Below are positions 1 to 50,350 of a DNA stretch of 64,000 nt, piece by piece; the stretch's first letter is position 1; every line of letters begins with the position of its first letter. The notes beneath the pieces are model-generated. The model saw only the letters and a list, made by a program, of their open reading frames with translations, ran no database searches and was not told the DNA's origin. The position numbers and the translations under genes are program-made. Origin of the DNA: Sycon ciliatum (taxonomy: Eukaryota > Porifera > Calcarea > Leucosolenida > Sycettidae); the NCBI RefSeq assembly GCF_964019385.1, contig NC_088645.1, positions 19,342,680-19,406,679 of the forward strand, in the 5' to 3' direction.

Positions 1-577
1 GTTTCTAAGAACACTGGCAGTGCCACGGATTATGGCTACGCATGTTCCGTCCGCTCTGCGAGGGACGCGGAAAGAGGAACATCGATAGGAAAACCATCAG
101 TAGTGAAGTTCCGTCGCCCCTGCTATCTGCATTCTATGTCCATGCAAAAACGCAGGAGGAGCGGCACGCGGGGCTCTTCAGCCGCACATGTCGAGTGCTG
201 CGCTTGACAGACGGAGTGCTGAAACAGCGAAAGAAGGACAGCCTCGAACGCCAGGTGCAGCACAAGGCACATGTTACAAAGGACGACGTTGTATTCTTCA
301 TCGTTGACGGGAAAGAGATCCTGAAGTTGGGACCGTCGTGCATGTCGAAAAACCATCAAGGCGGACTGCAGGTCACTAGTGTAATCCTAAAAAAAAAGGA
401 GTTTATATACCAGTTTATACACCAGTTTATATACCAGTTTATATACCAGTTTATATACCAGTTTATATTCTCGTCATCGAAGTACTTGTTATATGCAAAA
501 TACAAGTCTGGAGTGTTGTGTGGGGAGAGATGGGAGTTTGTATACAAGCTCAGTATAAATATATATATATATATATA
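1..577. other. Left edge, no recognised gene; short 12-bp tandem repeat
   Basis: An open frame runs through 42-590 on the + strand, but I recognise no domain in it and its end is made of repeats. At 401-467 a 12-base unit (accagtttatat) is repeated about five times, followed by a TA microsatellite at 559-577 that abuts the first copy of the ribozyme array. I see no promoter or splice evidence that would make the open frame a gene. Confidence 0.5.
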
Positions 578-683
578 CAGAGCTCACTGACTTGTCAGTT
601 TGAGCACTCTAGTAAGGTACGTTCGGGCCTGATTGGAAATTTTTATTTCCATTGTTATCAGGTTCGGCCTCATTTCCTCTGTG

Positions 684-727
684 CTGCGCTGACGAGTCTA
701 CAAAGGATGAAACAGTTCTGTCCGCAG
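684..727 (+). ncRNA. Type-I hammerhead ribozyme, copy 1
   Basis: Stem I is ctgcg (684-688) with cgcag (723-727). The core box ctgacga (689-695) is followed by stem II with loop acaaa, then the gaa box and stem III acag/ctgt closed by two bases. C722 is the cleavage nucleotide. Stem II (gtct/ggat) relies on two G-U pairs, so this copy should fold less stably than copies 2 and 3. All catalytic-core bases I can check are present. Confidence 0.85.
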
Positions 728-909
728 ATTGAGTATTTCGCTCCTGCTCTTGTAGCAGTTGAGCACTCTTGCGTGGGGTAGTGCCTTTGCTGTTTGCGTT
801 ATGCAGAGCTCACTGACTTGTCAGTTTGAGCACTCTGGCAAGGTACGTTCGGGCCTGATTGGAAATTTTTATTTCCATTGCTATCAGGTTCGGCCTCATT
901 TCCTCTGTG

Positions 910-953
910 CTGCGCTGACGAGTCCACAAAGGACGAAACAGTTCTGTCCGCAG
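910..953 (+). ncRNA. Type-I hammerhead ribozyme, copy 2
   Basis: This is a textbook fold. Stem I pairs ctgcg (910-914) with cgcag (949-953); core ctgacga is at 915-921; stem II gtcc/ggac (922-925, 931-934) has loop acaaa; gaa is at 935-937; stem III acag/ctgt (938-941, 944-947) has a two-base loop; C948 is the cleavage nucleotide. A further ctc/gag pairing outside an internal loop could extend stem I, the arrangement that allows the loop-loop contact needed for fast cleavage in natural hammerheads. Confidence 0.92.
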
Positions 954-1135
954 ATTGAGTATTTCGCTCCTGCTCTTGTAGCAGTGGAGCACTCTTGCGT
1001 GGGGTAGTGCCTTTGCTGTTTGCGTTATGCAGAGCTCACTGACTTGTCAGTTTGAGCACTCTGGCAAGGTACGTTCGGGCCTGATTGGAAATTTTTATTT
1101 CCATTGCTATCAGGTTCGGCCTTATTTTCTCTGTG

Positions 1136-1181
1136 CTGCGCTGATGAGTTCTAAAAGAACGAAACAGCATGCTGTCCGCAG
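1136..1181 (+). ncRNA. Type-I hammerhead ribozyme, copy 3
   Basis: Core ctgatga (1141-1147) is the consensus form. Stem II is gttc/gaac (1148-1151, 1157-1160), gaa is at 1161-1163, stem III acagc/gctgt (1164-1168, 1171-1175) has loop at, and C1176 precedes the predicted cut. Stem I is ctgcg/cgcag. Relative to copy 2, stems II and III carry changes on both sides that keep the pairing, which is covariation in favour of a functional RNA fold. Confidence 0.92.
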
Positions 1182-1363
1182 ATTGAGTATTTCGCTCCTG
1201 CTCTTGTAGCAGTTGAGCACTCTTGCGTGGGGTAGTGCCTTTGCTGTTGGCGTTATGCAGAGCTCACTGACTTGTCAGTTTGAGCACTCTGGCAAGGTAC
1301 GTTCGGGCCTGATTGGAAATTTTTATTTCCATTGCTATCAGGTTCGGCCTTATTTCCTCTGTC

Positions 1364-1409
1364 CTGCGCTGATGAGTTCTAAAAGAACAAAACAGCATGC
1401 TGTCCGCAG
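1364..1409 (+). ncRNA. Hammerhead ribozyme copy 4, core-mutated
   Basis: The same fold as copy 3, with core ctgatga at 1369-1375 and stem II gttc/gaac, but position 1389, the conserved G of the gaa box (G12), is A. G12 is the general base of the hammerhead, so this copy is predicted to be inactive. It is also the copy that ends the array. Confidence 0.8.
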
Positions 1410-1486
1410 ATTGAGTATATATATCGCAGATTGAGTATATATATATATATATATATATTTAAATAGAGAGGTAGGCGAACAAAATT

Positions 1487-2640: not shown

Positions 2641-3371
2641 CAAGAAAATTATTTCAAAATAGAGCATAATGGGAGCTGCGGTTCTAGAGGGAGTTCGTTG
2701 TTCAGGCCCATAGGCTGTGGCAAAGGTGTTTGTGGACTTACCCTTGAAGCTTTTGAGCAGCTATGTGCTATGCACGTGCGAAGAGACGTCATTGTTGCAA
2801 CTGGTTCCATTCCTCGATCGTTGTATAGGGGAAGGTGGGGCAAAGGATGTTGGGTGAGCTAGCTATGAGCAGGTTGCCCTGTTGGGGTTGATGGCAGGGT
2901 GTTTCCATCAGCAAAAAATCCCATCTCGCTGGCCGCAGAGGGGCAAACCTCAGAATTGTTCACATAATTATGCAAGGTATAAGGTGGGCTCAATAATTTT
3001 ACCTTATCCAGGAACCTGCCTGGAAGTGAAGCTATGGCAAGACAATCTGTCTACCGATTTATCACATTGTCACTAAAGACTAGATAACTCTTTTCCATAC
3101 ACTTCCGCTGGAAAATCCAATTTAAAGTTATAATCGCTAGGTTACTCGATCTACTCAATGATTACTAGATTATAAATATTTTTGAAAGGATTGGGACAAT
3201 TCAAATTCCAAGGATCAATCGGGGAAGTGAACTGCCTGAAAAAGAGAGAAATCGCTAGAATCACCAGGGCATAAGCATTGCTCATGACAACAAGGTAATG
3301 GATCCTGGTTGTTCTGGCGTTTTTTCACTTCACTTCCTCGACTGATCCTTTGAATTACTATTATAATAATG
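2641..3371. other. Non-repetitive stretch, no gene seen
   Basis: Mostly unique sequence with only short open frames and no recognised domain. The last 130 bases (about 3240-3371) already resemble the flank of the tandem repeat that follows. Confidence 0.5.
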
Positions 3372-4115
3372 GATTCACAGGAAGTGTGAGTTACGAAGTC
3401 TGAAGAAAATGTTGAATGGTCTCTGCTGGGATGACAACTACACCATAGCTTAGTGGTTAGAGCATCCCTGGCTACAAGCGAGGGTCTCTGGTTCGAGTCC
3501 TGGTGGTGAAAGTCAATTTTTTCAGACTTTTCCGGTTTGTGTCTTTCCTTCAAACCTGTTAATGTCTTATGACCTGGGGCTCCCCGCGTGCTAGTTTGTA
3601 CATGAATTGTGTGGGTAAAGTGAGGGCTGCGTCTCACCCGCCTGTGTGGATTCGCAGGAAGTGTGAGTTACGAAGTCTGAAAAAATTGCTGAACGGTCTC
3701 TGCTGGGATCACGACTACACCATAGCTCAGTGGTTAGAGCATCGCTGGCTACAAGCCAGTGCCCCTGGTTCTGGTCCTGGTGGTGACGGTCAATTTTTTC
3801 TTCCGACTTTTCCCGTTTGTGTCTTTCCCTCAACCATATGAATATCTTATGACTTGGGGCTCACCGCGTGTTAGTTTGTACATGAAATGTGTGGGGTTGA
3901 GGGCTGCGTCCCACCCGCCTGTGAGAATTCACAGGAAGTGTGAGTTACAAAGTCTGAAGAAAATGTTGAACAGTCTCTGCTGGGATGACGATTACACCAT
4001 AGCTCAGTGGTTAGAGCATCGCTAGCTACAAGCGTGGGTCCCTAGTTCGAGTCCTGGTGGTGACAGTCAATTATATCTTCAGACTTTTTCCGTTTGTGTC
4101 TTTCCCTCAAACCTG
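3372..4115 (+). repeat. Tandem 277-bp repeat with embedded tRNA-like promoter (SINE-like)
   Basis: The unit begins near gattcacaggaagtgtgag at 3372, 3649 and 3926, a spacing of 277 bases, with the third copy incomplete. Each unit carries a tRNA-like core: an A-box match (tagctcagtgg at 3723-3733 and 4000-4010; tagcttagtgg at 3447-3457) and a B-box match (ggttcgagtcc at 3490-3500, agttcgagtcc at 4044-4054, degenerate in copy 2 at 3767-3777). A short acceptor-like pairing cacca/tggtg surrounds each core. The T-stem is not properly complementary, so these are tRNA-derived and not tRNA genes. Tandem rather than dispersed SINE-like units are uncommon. Confidence 0.75.
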
Positions 4116-26041: not shown

Positions 26042-26493
26042 TATCAACCACCACACCACACCGCTGCGCTCTCTGGCCGACCTTAACACGTTGCCACAGC
26101 TCACCATCAGCAGAACGACACTTCAGTTATTACTCTGCTCCTTCAGACAACAGCTGTTCTCGCTTACACCCTTTAAATTGCTAGTATCCTCAGTGTAGTC
26201 TATCTGTATTGCCTTTGCTTAGCCCTAATCTTCGCGCCTAGGATGCGCAAGTATGTTTTCCGCCCTTTTTGCCCCTAAGATGCACCATTATGTTTCCCCC
26301 TTTTTTGCTACAAAAGGGTGAAATTCACTATCTGTTACCCATTCTACATTATAAACCTTCACTGATGAGATCCTGATGATCGAAACAGCTGCTGTCTGAA
26401 GGAGCAGTGTACCAACTGAAGTGTCGTTTTGCTGATGGTGTGCTCTGGCAACGTGTTGAGGTCGGTCGGAGAGCGCAGCGGTGTGGTGTGGTG
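26042..26493. mobile_element. Inverted repeat of ~110-base arms with a hammerhead at the inner edge
   Basis: Positions 26049-26158 and 26385-26493 are inverted copies, e.g. caccacaccacaccgctgcg (26049) against its complement ending at 26493, and atcagcagaacgacacttca against its complement near 26420-26440. The right copy starts inside stem III of a complete hammerhead. The left copy keeps the equivalent stem III and cleavage-site bases but not the catalytic core. Inverted partial copies of a hammerhead-bearing terminal repeat are characteristic of Penelope-like elements; that assignment is inference. Confidence 0.65.
26356..26402 (+). ncRNA. Type-I hammerhead ribozyme
   Basis: Stem I ccttca (26356-26361) pairs perfectly with tgaagg (26397-26402). 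Core ctgatga is at 26362-26368, stem II gatc/gatc (26369-26372, 26378-26381) has a five-base loop, gaa is at 26382-26384, stem III acag/ctgt (26385-26388, 26392-26395) has a three-base loop, and C26396 is the cleavage nucleotide. Every invariant core base is present and all three stems are perfect. The very short stem III is the form seen in metazoan type-I hammerheads. Confidence 0.93.
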
Positions 26494-27025
26494 TTTGATG
26501 ATCGTCTAGTGTGTAAAACTCAGAGTAACACCTAGTTATTTATCCTCTAGGTCTTGAAACATCAAATCGCAAGACAGAAGTGCGCCAAGTGTGCCTCACG
26601 TGGCTAGGGCTTCCAAAACATGCGCAAATCAACGCTGCCACGCCAAATGACTCGAGGAGGAATGCTGCTAGACCCACATGAGATACTCCTAGCGGCTAGT
26701 ACACTCGTACATTTTAGCCAACAATCACAGGGAAGCGTGTCGCAATGCGAGTGGTGAGCCGAAAGATGCCAGCCCTGCGGATTGTAAACAGATGGTGCTT
26801 TCTGCTACTTGGGCCTCTTCAAGCTACTGGTGTTGCCTCAGTTCTTGGACTAGGGATTAGTGTTTTAGACACATTTGTAGCAATATATTGGTCCCCTGCC
26901 GTCCTAGCATTGCGCTGCATGACGAAGTCTTGATATGTTCAGTTTACTTTGTTGGACGGTAGCAATAATATTACATAAAATAGTTCAGGGTGAGTGTCGC
27001 AGGCTTTACCCTATCTGTGGATTGG
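26494..27025. other. Upstream region of gene 2, nothing recognised
   Basis: About 500 bases with only a short open frame (26745-26933) that I do not recognise. The gene 2 promoter may lie here, but no convincing TATA or initiator could be singled out. Confidence 0.4.
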
Positions 27026-37421: not shown

Positions 37422-37847
37422 TTTGCTCCCCACACCGGAGCTCGCGATATTCCGCCGACTTTACTTGACACTTGACTGACTCACGACTGCCATCCAGAGC
37501 ACACGAGAAGTACATCGAACCTTCGACTCCGCAAACCTGCAAGAAAGCACCACTCCCTGCTCAATACACAGTGTTTCGGGGAATTCACCCCTCATCAGTT
37601 GAGCTTGAGTAGGCTGAGGAAGATTGTGCCTGAAGAGCACCACTTATATAGTGCTCTCCAGGCACAAACATCACCAGGGATACAAACTTACAGAGACGCT
37701 CCGCTTCCAGCTCGACAAACACCTCGTTTGCCGAGTCGAAGGTTCGATGTACTTCTCGTGTGCTCTGGATGGCAGTCGTGAGTAAGTCAAGTGTCAAGTA
37801 AAGTCGGCGGAATATCGCGAGCTCCGGTGTGGGGAGCAAACCCTTTA
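37422..37847. mobile_element. Inverted repeat of ~118-base arms enclosing a minus-strand hammerhead
   Basis: Arms 37422-37540 and 37728-37847 are almost perfect inverted copies, e.g. ctccccacaccggagctcgc (37427) against gcgagctccggtgtggggag (37818-37837). The spacer holds the hammerhead (37559-37604, minus) and an 85-base block (37650-37735) shared with 28325-28412. Related sequence occurs at 42421-42636 and 50205-50350. On the minus strand the ribozyme is followed directly by the arm, the same order as at 26.4 kb. Confidence 0.7.
37559..37604 (-). ncRNA. Type-I hammerhead ribozyme, minus strand, A at the cleavage position
   Basis: On the minus strand, gctcaa (37604-37599) pairs perfectly with ttgagc (37564-37559) as stem I. 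Core ctgatga is at 37598-37592, stem II gggg/cccc has a six-base loop, gaa is at 37577-37575, and stem III is aca/tgt with a ctg loop. The cleavage nucleotide (37565) is A, so the triplet is GUA and not the usual GUC; NUA sites are permitted but rarer. All other core bases are intact. Confidence 0.85.
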
Positions 37848-48382: not shown

Positions 48383-48491
48383 GTGAGCTACCTCATCTGC
48401 ATATTTCTTTCGACAATTGCAAGGTTGCGGCTGACTAAAGAAACGACTGAACTATTAACTATGCTTGGTAGCTCGGCCTACATAGCTCGTA

Positions 48492-48539
48492 GCTGTTCTG
48501 ATGAGGCATTTATGGCCGAAACAGCTTGCTGTCTACAGC
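48492..48539 (+). ncRNA. Type-I hammerhead ribozyme (stem I mismatch)
   Basis: Core ctgatga at 48498-48504, stem II ggc/gcc with a seven-base loop, gaa at 48518-48520, stem III acagc/gctgt with a tt loop, cleavage nucleotide C48533. Stem I gctgt/acagc is perfect except for a U-U opposition next to the core (48497 with 48534), which would lower activity. The following attgagtatt segment matches the tandem array at 578-1434, so the two families are related. Confidence 0.85.
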
Positions 48540-48703
48540 ATTGAGTATTACGTTCCTCGGCTTTCGTCTTGTCAGTAGGCTGCTCTAGTGCTGCGGCATC
48601 GCGCAATGCCCACTACTTTTTGTAGCTTGAGCACTCTGGCGCTAGAGCGACGGGCTATCTTAATGTCTGTGGTGCCTCTTTGCACCATGGCTGGTAGCTG
48701 CTA

Positions 48704-49937
48704 CCAAGAGTAGATAAACAAGAGTGTGCAACTCCGGGATCCGCGCGGATTGGTTGGCCCACGGCGGAATTTTTTGTTGACGTAATCTTTTCGACCACCC
48801 ACGCGCTGCTAGTCTTTTGGAAAGTTTTGCCTCGTGCACTTGGTCGGGCTTACATTACAATGTCGGTGCCCAACACGTGCTCTCACACTGCTCTTCGGCA
48901 AGAAGCGCGTTTTTCTGAAAAAAGGTGACGTCAACAACAAAATCCGCCGTGGTTGGGGGTATCTCCCCAAAGATCATCCAAAAGTTCAAGAGAGCAGCTT
49001 ATCACCATCTCCTCAGAACAAAATGGCACTGGGCCACTCATAGCATACGCGAGTAAGAGGGTACACTGTCCTACCTTGCTTGGAAATACATGTAATCTCT
49101 CCTCACAGACAGTCTCCTCTTGAATTTAAAGGTCTAACAGCGTTCACATCAATACTCAACTTATTCTTTTGCTCACTGAGCAATACAATCTTTCCATTTT
49201 CTTTCTTCTGTTTTCTTTTTCAATTTAATCCTCCCTACCCAATATTAGCCCTTTCCCAAAGGTGCTCTTTTAATTCGCACGAAGTGCTTTTCGCGTCCCT
49301 CAAAATATGCTGAAAAAGTGCTCTTTTTTCAGTGAAAACAGGCAAAAAGTGCTCTTTTTCAGTGAAGCATAGCCATGACACATGTTTAGATATGAACTCA
49401 AGATGAGAAATGAATACGCACTCTTCCATTTATGGGTCCAAGAAAGGCAAACCAGGAAGTAAAGTTCAAAAAACCCACTGTTTACAGCATTGCGTACACC
49501 AGGCACAAGCTTCACCAGCGTGTTACCCCCAAAAAAGCAGCGTGCCAAGGCCCATCGCGATATCGAGCACTCGGAAACTGTGATCGCATGCATGAGCAAA
49601 CAGATTTTAGCACTTTTTCAGCTCAAAAAGGTCAAAAAGGGCGATATTCACCAAAAACGCAATAAAGGGCGAAAGAAACGGGCTTTTCCAAAAAGGGTCA
49701 AAAAGGGCGAAAAAAGGGCGAGCACCTTTGGGAAAGTGCTACCCAATATCCCTTTGGTGCGTCCATGGAGCTATGAAGCCGAGACCTCTGGTCGGCGGAG
49801 CTTAATGAGCCCCACCACCACACTCCATTATTCACCACAGTGTCTGGAGATATGTGGATTTTGTAGAAAAAAGAGAAAAAAACTGGAGATTGTGCAGGAC
49901 AGATCCGGAGTTGTACGCTCTTGTTTATCTACTCTTG
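48704..49937. mobile_element. 1.2-kb element with ~35-bp terminal inverted repeats
   Basis: caagagtagataaacaagag and the following 15 bases at 48704-48741 face their complement at 49901-49937 with about three differences. A second inverted pair inside (49243-49275 and 49712-49750, around tttcccaaaggtgctc) and short aaaagggcgaaaa repeats fill the interior. No transposase frame is visible and no convincing target duplication was found, so it is non-autonomous and unclassified. Confidence 0.65.
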
Positions 49938-49954
49938 CAACTACTTAGCTCGTA

Positions 49955-50002
49955 GCTGTACTGATGAGGCCTTTATGGCCGAAACAGCTTGCTGTCTACA
50001 GC
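49955..50002 (+). ncRNA. Type-I hammerhead ribozyme
   Basis: All stems are perfect: stem I gctgta/tacagc (49955-49960, 49997-50002), core ctgatga 49961-49967, stem II ggcc/ggcc around tttat, gaa 49981-49983, stem III acagc/gctgt with a tt loop, and C49996 at the cleavage position. About 58 bases around it repeat the 48.49-kb hammerhead with three substitutions, including the base that repairs stem I. Confidence 0.93.
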
Positions 50003-50177
50003 ATTGGTTGTACTTGAAGTATATGTTTTCAAACTGGGACGGACGCAAGGAATATTATAAAGATGTCTTTTCCAGGCACCAATCGGGCACAAGGGGAAGA
50101 TTGATGATCCACCAGCATTATTAGACTGGATGATTTGAATCGTCCACTTAAAAAAGAATCATCTTTCTCAGCCTATT

Positions 50178-50350
50178 CAAGCTCAACTGGAACACAGTAA
50201 ATTGAACAGGGAGTGGTGCTTTCTTGCAGGTCAACCCAGTTGAAGGTTCGATGGACTTCTCGTGTGCTCTGGATCGCGGTCGTTAGTCAGTCGAGTGATA
50301 ATTCATGTCACAGGAAAGGCACAATCTCCAAAGTAGGGAGCGACACACAT
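50178..50350 (+). repeat. Hammerhead-associated repeat with a decayed ribozyme
   Basis: caagctcaactg (50178-50189) matches the 5' stem I and core start of the 37.6-kb hammerhead; about 18 bases carrying the rest of the core and stem II are missing; gaacacagtaaattgaacag resumes at the box after stem II. What follows (gggagtggtgctttcttgca) tracks the same family to about 50350. The ribozyme is dead. Confidence 0.65.

Follow-up and report, generated by a model that had tools for sequence, protein, structure and literature searches.

Near the start of a 64,000-nucleotide stretch of the genome of the calcareous sponge Sycon ciliatum (hereafter the window), a short tandem array carries a hammerhead-like sequence in every unit, raising the question of what kind of element it is and how such an array could have been copied into this place. 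Hammerhead-bearing non-LTR retrozymes of animals are known in cnidarians, molluscs, amphibians and other hosts, with units of 220-240 bp in Acropora millepora, 350-390 bp in mussel and 330-350 bp in axolotl, according to the available part of PMC7229834. The sponge array fits this known kind. The first-pass annotation of the window had proposed a metazoan-type retrozyme array, a view strengthened by the type I tandem units, the self-paired predicted circles, the dispersed relatives and the coexisting Penelope-like elements described below.

Tandem Repeats Finder delimits the array at 574-1418 (1275-2119 of locus L001), with a period of 226, 3.7 copies and 95% matches. The units start at 578, 804, 1030 and 1258, i.e., 226, 226 and 228 nts apart, in agreement with the 226-228-base spacing given earlier. 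Each unit follows the type I order of helix I, CTGANGA, helix II, GAA, helix III, GUC and helix I, and by sequence an internal loop UGUG/AUU separates stems I and Ib. Copies 1-3 hold a complete type I hammerhead core. The first-pass annotation had counted four full hammerheads, which stands for these three and not for copy 4 (AGAACAAAACAG), in which the GAA box reads AAA. Copy 4 is consequently predicted to be unable to cut, so that the anticipated release of 226-228-nt RNAs would be restricted to two monomers (723-948 and 949-1176). The GUC cut positions, 722/723, 948/949 and 1176/1177, were predicted again at the same places (Table 1). The paired changes reported between copies 2 and 3 were likewise recovered: one stem II pair is altered on both sides, from C-G to U-A, and a 2-nt insertion adds one pair to stem III. 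Eight of the 10 substitutions between these two copies fall in unit columns 94-142, and the hammerhead type differs between copies 1-2 and copies 3-4. The array and its relatives are referred to as family A (GC 0.478-0.496). TA-repeat flanks mask any target-site duplication of the array itself. A TATA-like stretch (TATAAATA) lies near 554, immediately 5′ of it.

Table 1. Predicted retrozyme features of the window (positions in the window; cut, predicted self-cleavage site)
Feature	Position	Strand	Basis or remark
5′ flanking TA-rich stretch (target)	553..577	.	sequence
Family A retrozyme array, 3.7 units	574..1418	+	begins at unit phase 78 and stops at phase 14 past the cut
Hammerhead copy 1 (stems Ib, I, II, III)	677..733	+	predicted cut 722/723; sequence
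Predicted 226-nt monomer, freed by copies 1 and 2	723..948	+	circular fold -75.6 kcal/mol, z -2.58
Hammerhead copy 2	903..959	+	predicted cut 948/949; Hammerhead_1 30.1 bits, E 4.5e-5
Predicted 228-nt monomer, freed by copies 2 and 3	949..1176	+	circular fold -78.7 kcal/mol, z -3.41
Hammerhead copy 3	1129..1187	+	predicted cut 1176/1177; HH9 28.4 bits
Hammerhead copy 4, predicted dead	1357..1415	+	GAA box changed to AAA; sequence
Terminal tail CGCAGATTGAGTAT, array 3′ end	1405..1418	+	14 nt past the predicted copy-4 cut; proposed reverse transcription start
Solo 14-nt tail within TA repeat	1425..1438	+	begins exactly at the cut position; L001 2126-2139
3′ flanking TA repeat (target), adjoining a 277-bp inverted-repeat element	1436..1465	.	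sequence
Divergent family B unit with hammerhead, core 48498	48479..48705	+	sequence
Second family B hammerhead, core 49961	49942..50008	+	element with 33-nt terminal inverted repeats lies between first and second

No hammerhead reached the Rfam gathering score anywhere in the 64-kb window, where the sole match was a tRNA, nor in five further loci. In a relaxed search, copies 2 and 1 scored 30.1 and 21.3 bits with Hammerhead_1 (gathering score 34), and copies 3 and 4 scored 28.4 and 29.2 bits with HH9 (gathering score 52). Among the outcomes that would count against it, the first-pass annotation had named the lack of an Infernal match above threshold; the best reached 30.1 of 34 bits, which taken literally is this outcome. 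Minimum-energy folds of contexts of about 100 nts did not yield the textbook hammerhead for any of the four copies, and those of copies 1-3 formed an alternative helix I in which UCUGUG pairs with CGCAGA. The pattern CTGANGA-N13-GAAAC occurs six times in the window (three times in copies 1-3) versus 0.08 times expected from dinucleotide shuffles. Covariation was examined in 12 hammerheads of this one genome, four from the array, three from elsewhere in the window and five from other loci. The three-stem structure, which was derived from the same 12 sequences and is thereby favoured, is paired in 96.2% of 156 cells, compared with at most 48.7% when the partners are slid. Two-sided changes affect 5 of its 13 pairs, three in stem I, two in stem II and none in stem III. 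The covariation score exceeded all of 500 shuffles, and a measure based on further pair types was unexceptional (74 of 500 shuffles). Folded as circles, three family A monomers are 66-71% paired and more stable than dinucleotide shuffles (z -2.58, -3.41 and -1.97, with 4, 1 and 5 of 200 shuffles equally low).

Further family A copies were found by a DNA search of the S. ciliatum assembly (538 Mb, 313 contigs) and in other loci that were examined, so that the search with the unit proposed by the earlier annotation did reveal dispersed relatives. Their 3′ ends fall in a narrow place: among 16 arrays with a known 3′ end (17 rows, one of them cut by the end of its locus), 10 stop at phase 11-17 past the cut, with the window array at 14. 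The six ending elsewhere are two arrays in L003, one each in L004 and L011, the plus-strand array of L032, where family A runs into a family B array, and one fragment of L049. The array of L002 starts exactly at a cut and ends 12 nts past one. In L040, a 14-nt insert (GTCCGCAGATTGAG) is flanked by an exact 13-bp duplication consisting of two copies of TATATTTACAGTA, which would fit copying begun at the usual family A site and halted almost at once. Solo tails similar to the one at 1425-1438 are also present in L049.

Several arrangements were noted among these loci. Family A arrays in L001, L032, L033 and L041 have a common 5′ end at phase 78-79, which perhaps reflects a stop or a microhomology with TA-rich targets. 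At 1115-1240 of L049, TA repeats divide pieces of family A from one another and from 14-nt tails of that family in inverted orientation, an arrangement that resembles the inversions produced by twin priming. In L031 (1370-1405) and L032 (1291-1803), family A sequence is fused directly to family B arrays, which may be due to template jumping or to nested insertion, the latter being possible for L031.

The second family, family B, is abundant and has a unit of 237 bp and a GC content of 0.53, and is represented in the window at 48.5-50 kb. There, an element with 33-nt terminal inverted repeats (48705-49937) appears, from the unit phase that continues from 177 to 182 across it, to have been inserted into a family B array. 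The query 48479-48705 gave at least 132 matches on 14 contigs (40 scored among 1136 first-look candidates), and an identical hammerhead is found in 88 of 105 motif occurrences across 30 partly overlapping loci. Array ends were mapped in 39 loci, using matches of at least 100 nts with none within 30 bases of a locus end and leaving out L015, L019-L021, L026, L030, L035, L037 and L038 as overlapping or duplicate. Identical flanks in L033/L034 and in L060/L061 reduce the 42 resulting rows to at most 40 independent events. The 3′ ends of 38 of the 42 arrays lie at phase 13-17 past the cut, namely at 15 (21 arrays), 14 (12), 17 (3), 16 (1) and 13 (1), a clustering with a binomial p of 2e-59 against uniform ends. 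The remaining phases are 9, 21, 140 and 177, two of them belonging to pieces of the rearranged locus L029. By comparison, the 5′ phases are scattered, with no departure from uniformity (KS p 0.15) and no enrichment at the cut (1 of 42 within 3 nts, 1.2 expected). An exact target-site duplication of at least 8 bp accompanies 28 of the 42 arrays versus 8.6% of mismatched flanks, and 14 arrays are without one. The duplications are commonly 9-17 bp long. Many flanks are TA-rich or made of simple repeats, which blurs individual cases; clear ones are seen in L016 (TACTTTCAAAGTGATA), L036, L043, L046, L058 and L060. In 12 of 14 hand-picked target sites the duplication starts with TA and overlaps the TA of the array end. 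Target-primed reverse transcription is recognised by a constant 3′ end, a 5′ end that varies and a target-site duplication, and to judge from the DNA family B bears all three.

Units are more alike within an array than across arrays. Among 44 complete family B units lying between intact hammerhead cores, differences average 1.61 within versus 3.54 between arrays, and none of 2000 label permutations gave so low a within-array value. Of the distinct substitutions in 35 arrays, 12 occur in every unit that covers the site, 71 are confined to one unit and 3 are intermediate; of the private variant events, 71 of 76 are distinct. For example, 33G>C, 94T>A and 135T>C occur in all five covering units of L057, and 135T>C and 175G>A in all six of L036. 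Most variant sites are covered by just two units, where an intermediate count cannot arise, hence more weight is given to the permutation test and to the small number of long arrays; in the three with at least three complete intact units, four substitutions are in all units, eight in one and one in some. Purifying selection on the hammerhead was also considered and not retained, since array-wide variants there (1 of 12) versus private ones (25 of 71) form only a trend (Fisher p 0.09).

Together, these observations lead to a reading to which we give a probability of about 0.75: the array at 574-1418 would be a non-autonomous non-LTR retrozyme of S. ciliatum, target-primed beside helix I and copied round an RNA circle. 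Hammerhead cleavage would free monomers, and their ligation would produce the circle, a step taken from axolotl and mussel, where a tRNA ligase closes the monomer RNA (available part of PMC7229834); circularisation of the released sponge monomers is thus proposed by analogy. A partner reverse transcriptase would nick A/T-rich DNA and prime, aided by TA microhomology, at one site 11-17 nts downstream of the former cut, on the 3′ border of helix I. It would then copy round the circle about 1-6 times and stop anywhere; the resulting tandem array would have its 3′ end at a constant phase and its 5′ end at a varying one, and would be bordered by short target-site duplications. Because array tails run 11-17 nts past the cut, the template must have been continuous there, i.e., either a ligated circle or an RNA that was never cut. 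Reverse transcription several times round one circle is the simplest reading given this tail, the absence of family B run-off at the cut and the array-specific haplotypes. Points against it are that no gathering score is reached, that other folds are favoured, that copy 4 is dead and that the window array is heterogeneous. The 6 of 16 family A and 4 of 42 family B rows with other 3′ ends, the 14 arrays lacking an 8-bp duplication, the high GC content of family B and the small number of units covering most variant sites also count against it. Since the mixed hammerhead types of this array could not come from one circle, template switching or later recombination is needed. Template switching would explain them, and the family A/B joins of L031 and L032 indicate that mixed arrays do occur. 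A more speculative extension, which we hold at somewhat below even odds, gives the hammerhead a second role: folded helix I would be the landing site that places the reverse transcriptase, each array being the read-out of one circle over 1-6 rounds. If true, this would be the priming signal that has been missing for metazoan retrozymes, and would explain why the hammerhead is retained.

The choice left by the tails, a ligated circle or an uncut RNA, defines the first alternative, in which an array already in the genome is transcribed into a long linear multimer, cleaved in part or not at all, and this RNA serves as the template, with copying starting internally at the same site. It would likewise place the 3′ ends at one point past the cut and leave the 5′ ends scattered, homogeneous young donor arrays would give homogeneous copies, and the mixed array of the window would arise more easily from a mixed linear donor. 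However, intact hammerheads are expected to destroy such multimers, and the private variants of donors should recur in daughter arrays; as 71 of 76 are distinct, this reading seems unlikely, though many donors could mask recurrence. It is also conceivable that the mobilising RNA is linear and ends at about +14 by termination or processing, so that target-primed reverse transcription begins at a natural end. Both families do share the position of their ends with respect to the hammerhead, and L002 as well as the solo 14-nt tails of the window and L049 start at the cut, as run-off at a cut 5′ end predicts. This is difficult to reconcile with family B 5′ ends that are no more frequent at the cut than expected and with arrays of up to 6.3 units, which would require an uncut multimer, and we regard it as quite improbable.

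Two further alternatives dispense with such a copying cycle. Ordinary satellite DNA, amplified locally through unequal exchange or slipped replication and with an incidental hammerhead, would account for tandem arrays, for homogeneity within them and for TA-repeat flanks, and slippage after insertion could have lengthened some arrays. It does not predict a family dispersed as short arrays over many sites of 14 contigs, with target-site duplications and a common 3′ end, nor a single 14-nt insertion carrying its own duplication (L040), and is a very improbable source of the arrays. The hammerhead-like motifs might themselves be due to chance or decay and be devoid of a catalytic role, as the sub-gathering scores and deviating minimum-energy folds would suggest. 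Against this stand the excess of the motif pattern over expectation and the recurrence of one identical family B hammerhead at most of its occurrences. As the covariation and the dispersed relatives disfavour chance despite the low scores, this reading has hardly any credibility.

The proposed partner reverse transcriptase may be a LINE or a Penelope-like enzyme. LINE frames with endonuclease and reverse transcriptase are present in the 64-kb window. In the S. ciliatum genome, 13 GIY-YIG loci were found; four tested frames match GIY-YIG above the cut-off, and one of these ORFs also matches RVT_1 with 26.9 bits, under the cut-off of 29.6, a combination expected of Penelope-like elements. A minimal hammerhead-like motif is located at 11 of the 13 loci (at one of them solely in the longer stretch L079), with the type I core CTGATGATGGCAATTTGCCGAAACG beside GIY-YIG genes. 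When loci were compared by eye, Penelope-like copies extended about 90-130 nts past the motif before diverging, with no retrozyme-type end 11-17 nts past the hammerhead, and a Penelope-like element was therefore set aside as a proven partner. A Penelope-like enzyme may nevertheless act in trans on retrozymes.

The mode of insertion proposed here is shared with SINEs and other LINE-type elements that use target-primed reverse transcription, which have a fixed 3′ end, variable 5′ truncation, A/T-rich targets and duplications of about 9-17 bp. The Sycon retrozymes differ from SINEs by their multimeric copies, and neither a poly-A nor a shared LINE tail was found in them. Similar to the metazoan retrozymes in the available part of PMC7229834, the Sycon arrays combine a type I hammerhead, tandem units within the 170-400 bp range, dispersed dimers to multimers, self-paired RNA, no reported LTR features and coexisting Penelope-like elements. 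They differ by their sponge host, by a unit sequence unrelated within the collections searched, and by the fixed 3′ end beside the hammerhead and the one-template haplotypes, which were not met in that part of the text. The GC content of family B exceeds the published range of metazoan retrozymes (below 50%), within which family A falls. The tandem hammerhead repeats of Nematostella are flanked by target-site duplications of 15 bp (commonly 9-17 bp in Sycon), and no common 3′ end is described for them in the accessible portion of PMC4918200, in contrast to the Sycon arrays. Plant LTR retrozymes, as presented in the same portion of PMC4918200, share with the Sycon elements their non-autonomous nature and a hammerhead-driven formation of monomers and circles, which is predicted in Sycon. 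They differ by type III hammerheads located in LTRs, a PBS and a PPT, 4-bp duplications and circles of 600-800 nts; a plant LTR retrozyme was ruled out here by the type I order and by duplications commonly of 9-17 bp. The minimal hammerheads of Penelope-like elements have a type I core like retrozymes and differ by a very short helix III (PMC7761336, in part).

The earlier suggestion that the unit may form a new family was fair. A 25-mer of the unit, searched for exactly in viral_contigs and genome_contigs (neither of which includes animals), gave no match, and a search of the literature, largely of open-access main texts, returned no link of a hammerhead ribozyme to Sycon. Within the records retrieved, hammerhead with Amphimedon gave just an off-topic review of the protein RECK, and retrozyme with sponge gave no title on sponge animals. 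The words sponge and Porifera are absent from PMC7229834. With this array, the host range of hammerhead retrozymes would come to include sponges, which branched off early among animals. A common retrozyme 3′ end was not found reported in the same largely open-access main texts, so far as these were available. According to section 9 of a 2020 review (PMC7761336, in the part available), metazoan retrozymes are without a conserved motif from which the mobilising retrotransposon could be deduced. Two families of distinct sequence whose 3′ ends coincide beside the hammerhead provide a signal of the kind described there as missing. This signal makes it testable whether copying proceeds from an RNA circle and by which enzyme, and the same end-mapping could be applied to the arrays of coral, mussel and salamander.

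Outside the array, the window holds four hammerhead-like sites that the first-pass annotation of the array does not list, at 26362, 48498, 49961 and 37544-37617 on the minus strand. The plus-strand site with its core at 26362 (26043-26499) is a well-formed hammerhead with a 6-bp helix I and a 4-bp helix II. Part of this hammerhead falls within the right arm of an inverted repeat of 116 nts that is 91% complementary, and the 3′ half of the hammerhead recurs antisense in the left arm. The site at 37544-37617 belongs to another hammerhead type (CTGATGAGGGGTGAATTCCCCGAAACACTGTGTA), whose cut site is GUA and which is dispersed, non-tandem and also found on the plus strand at position 9458 of L075; a sequence near 50180 seems to be a degenerate relative of it.

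Beside the family A array, a 277-bp inverted-repeat element with ends ACACACAACAACAAGGTTG occupies 1484-1760. The same sequence is found next to retrozyme arrays in L032, so that the TA repeat of this element may be favoured as a retrozyme target. At 3370-4112, a 277-bp tandem repeat contains one tRNA-like gene per unit. Two of these genes are called as tRNA-Cys with anticodon ACA, and one passes the Rfam gathering score.
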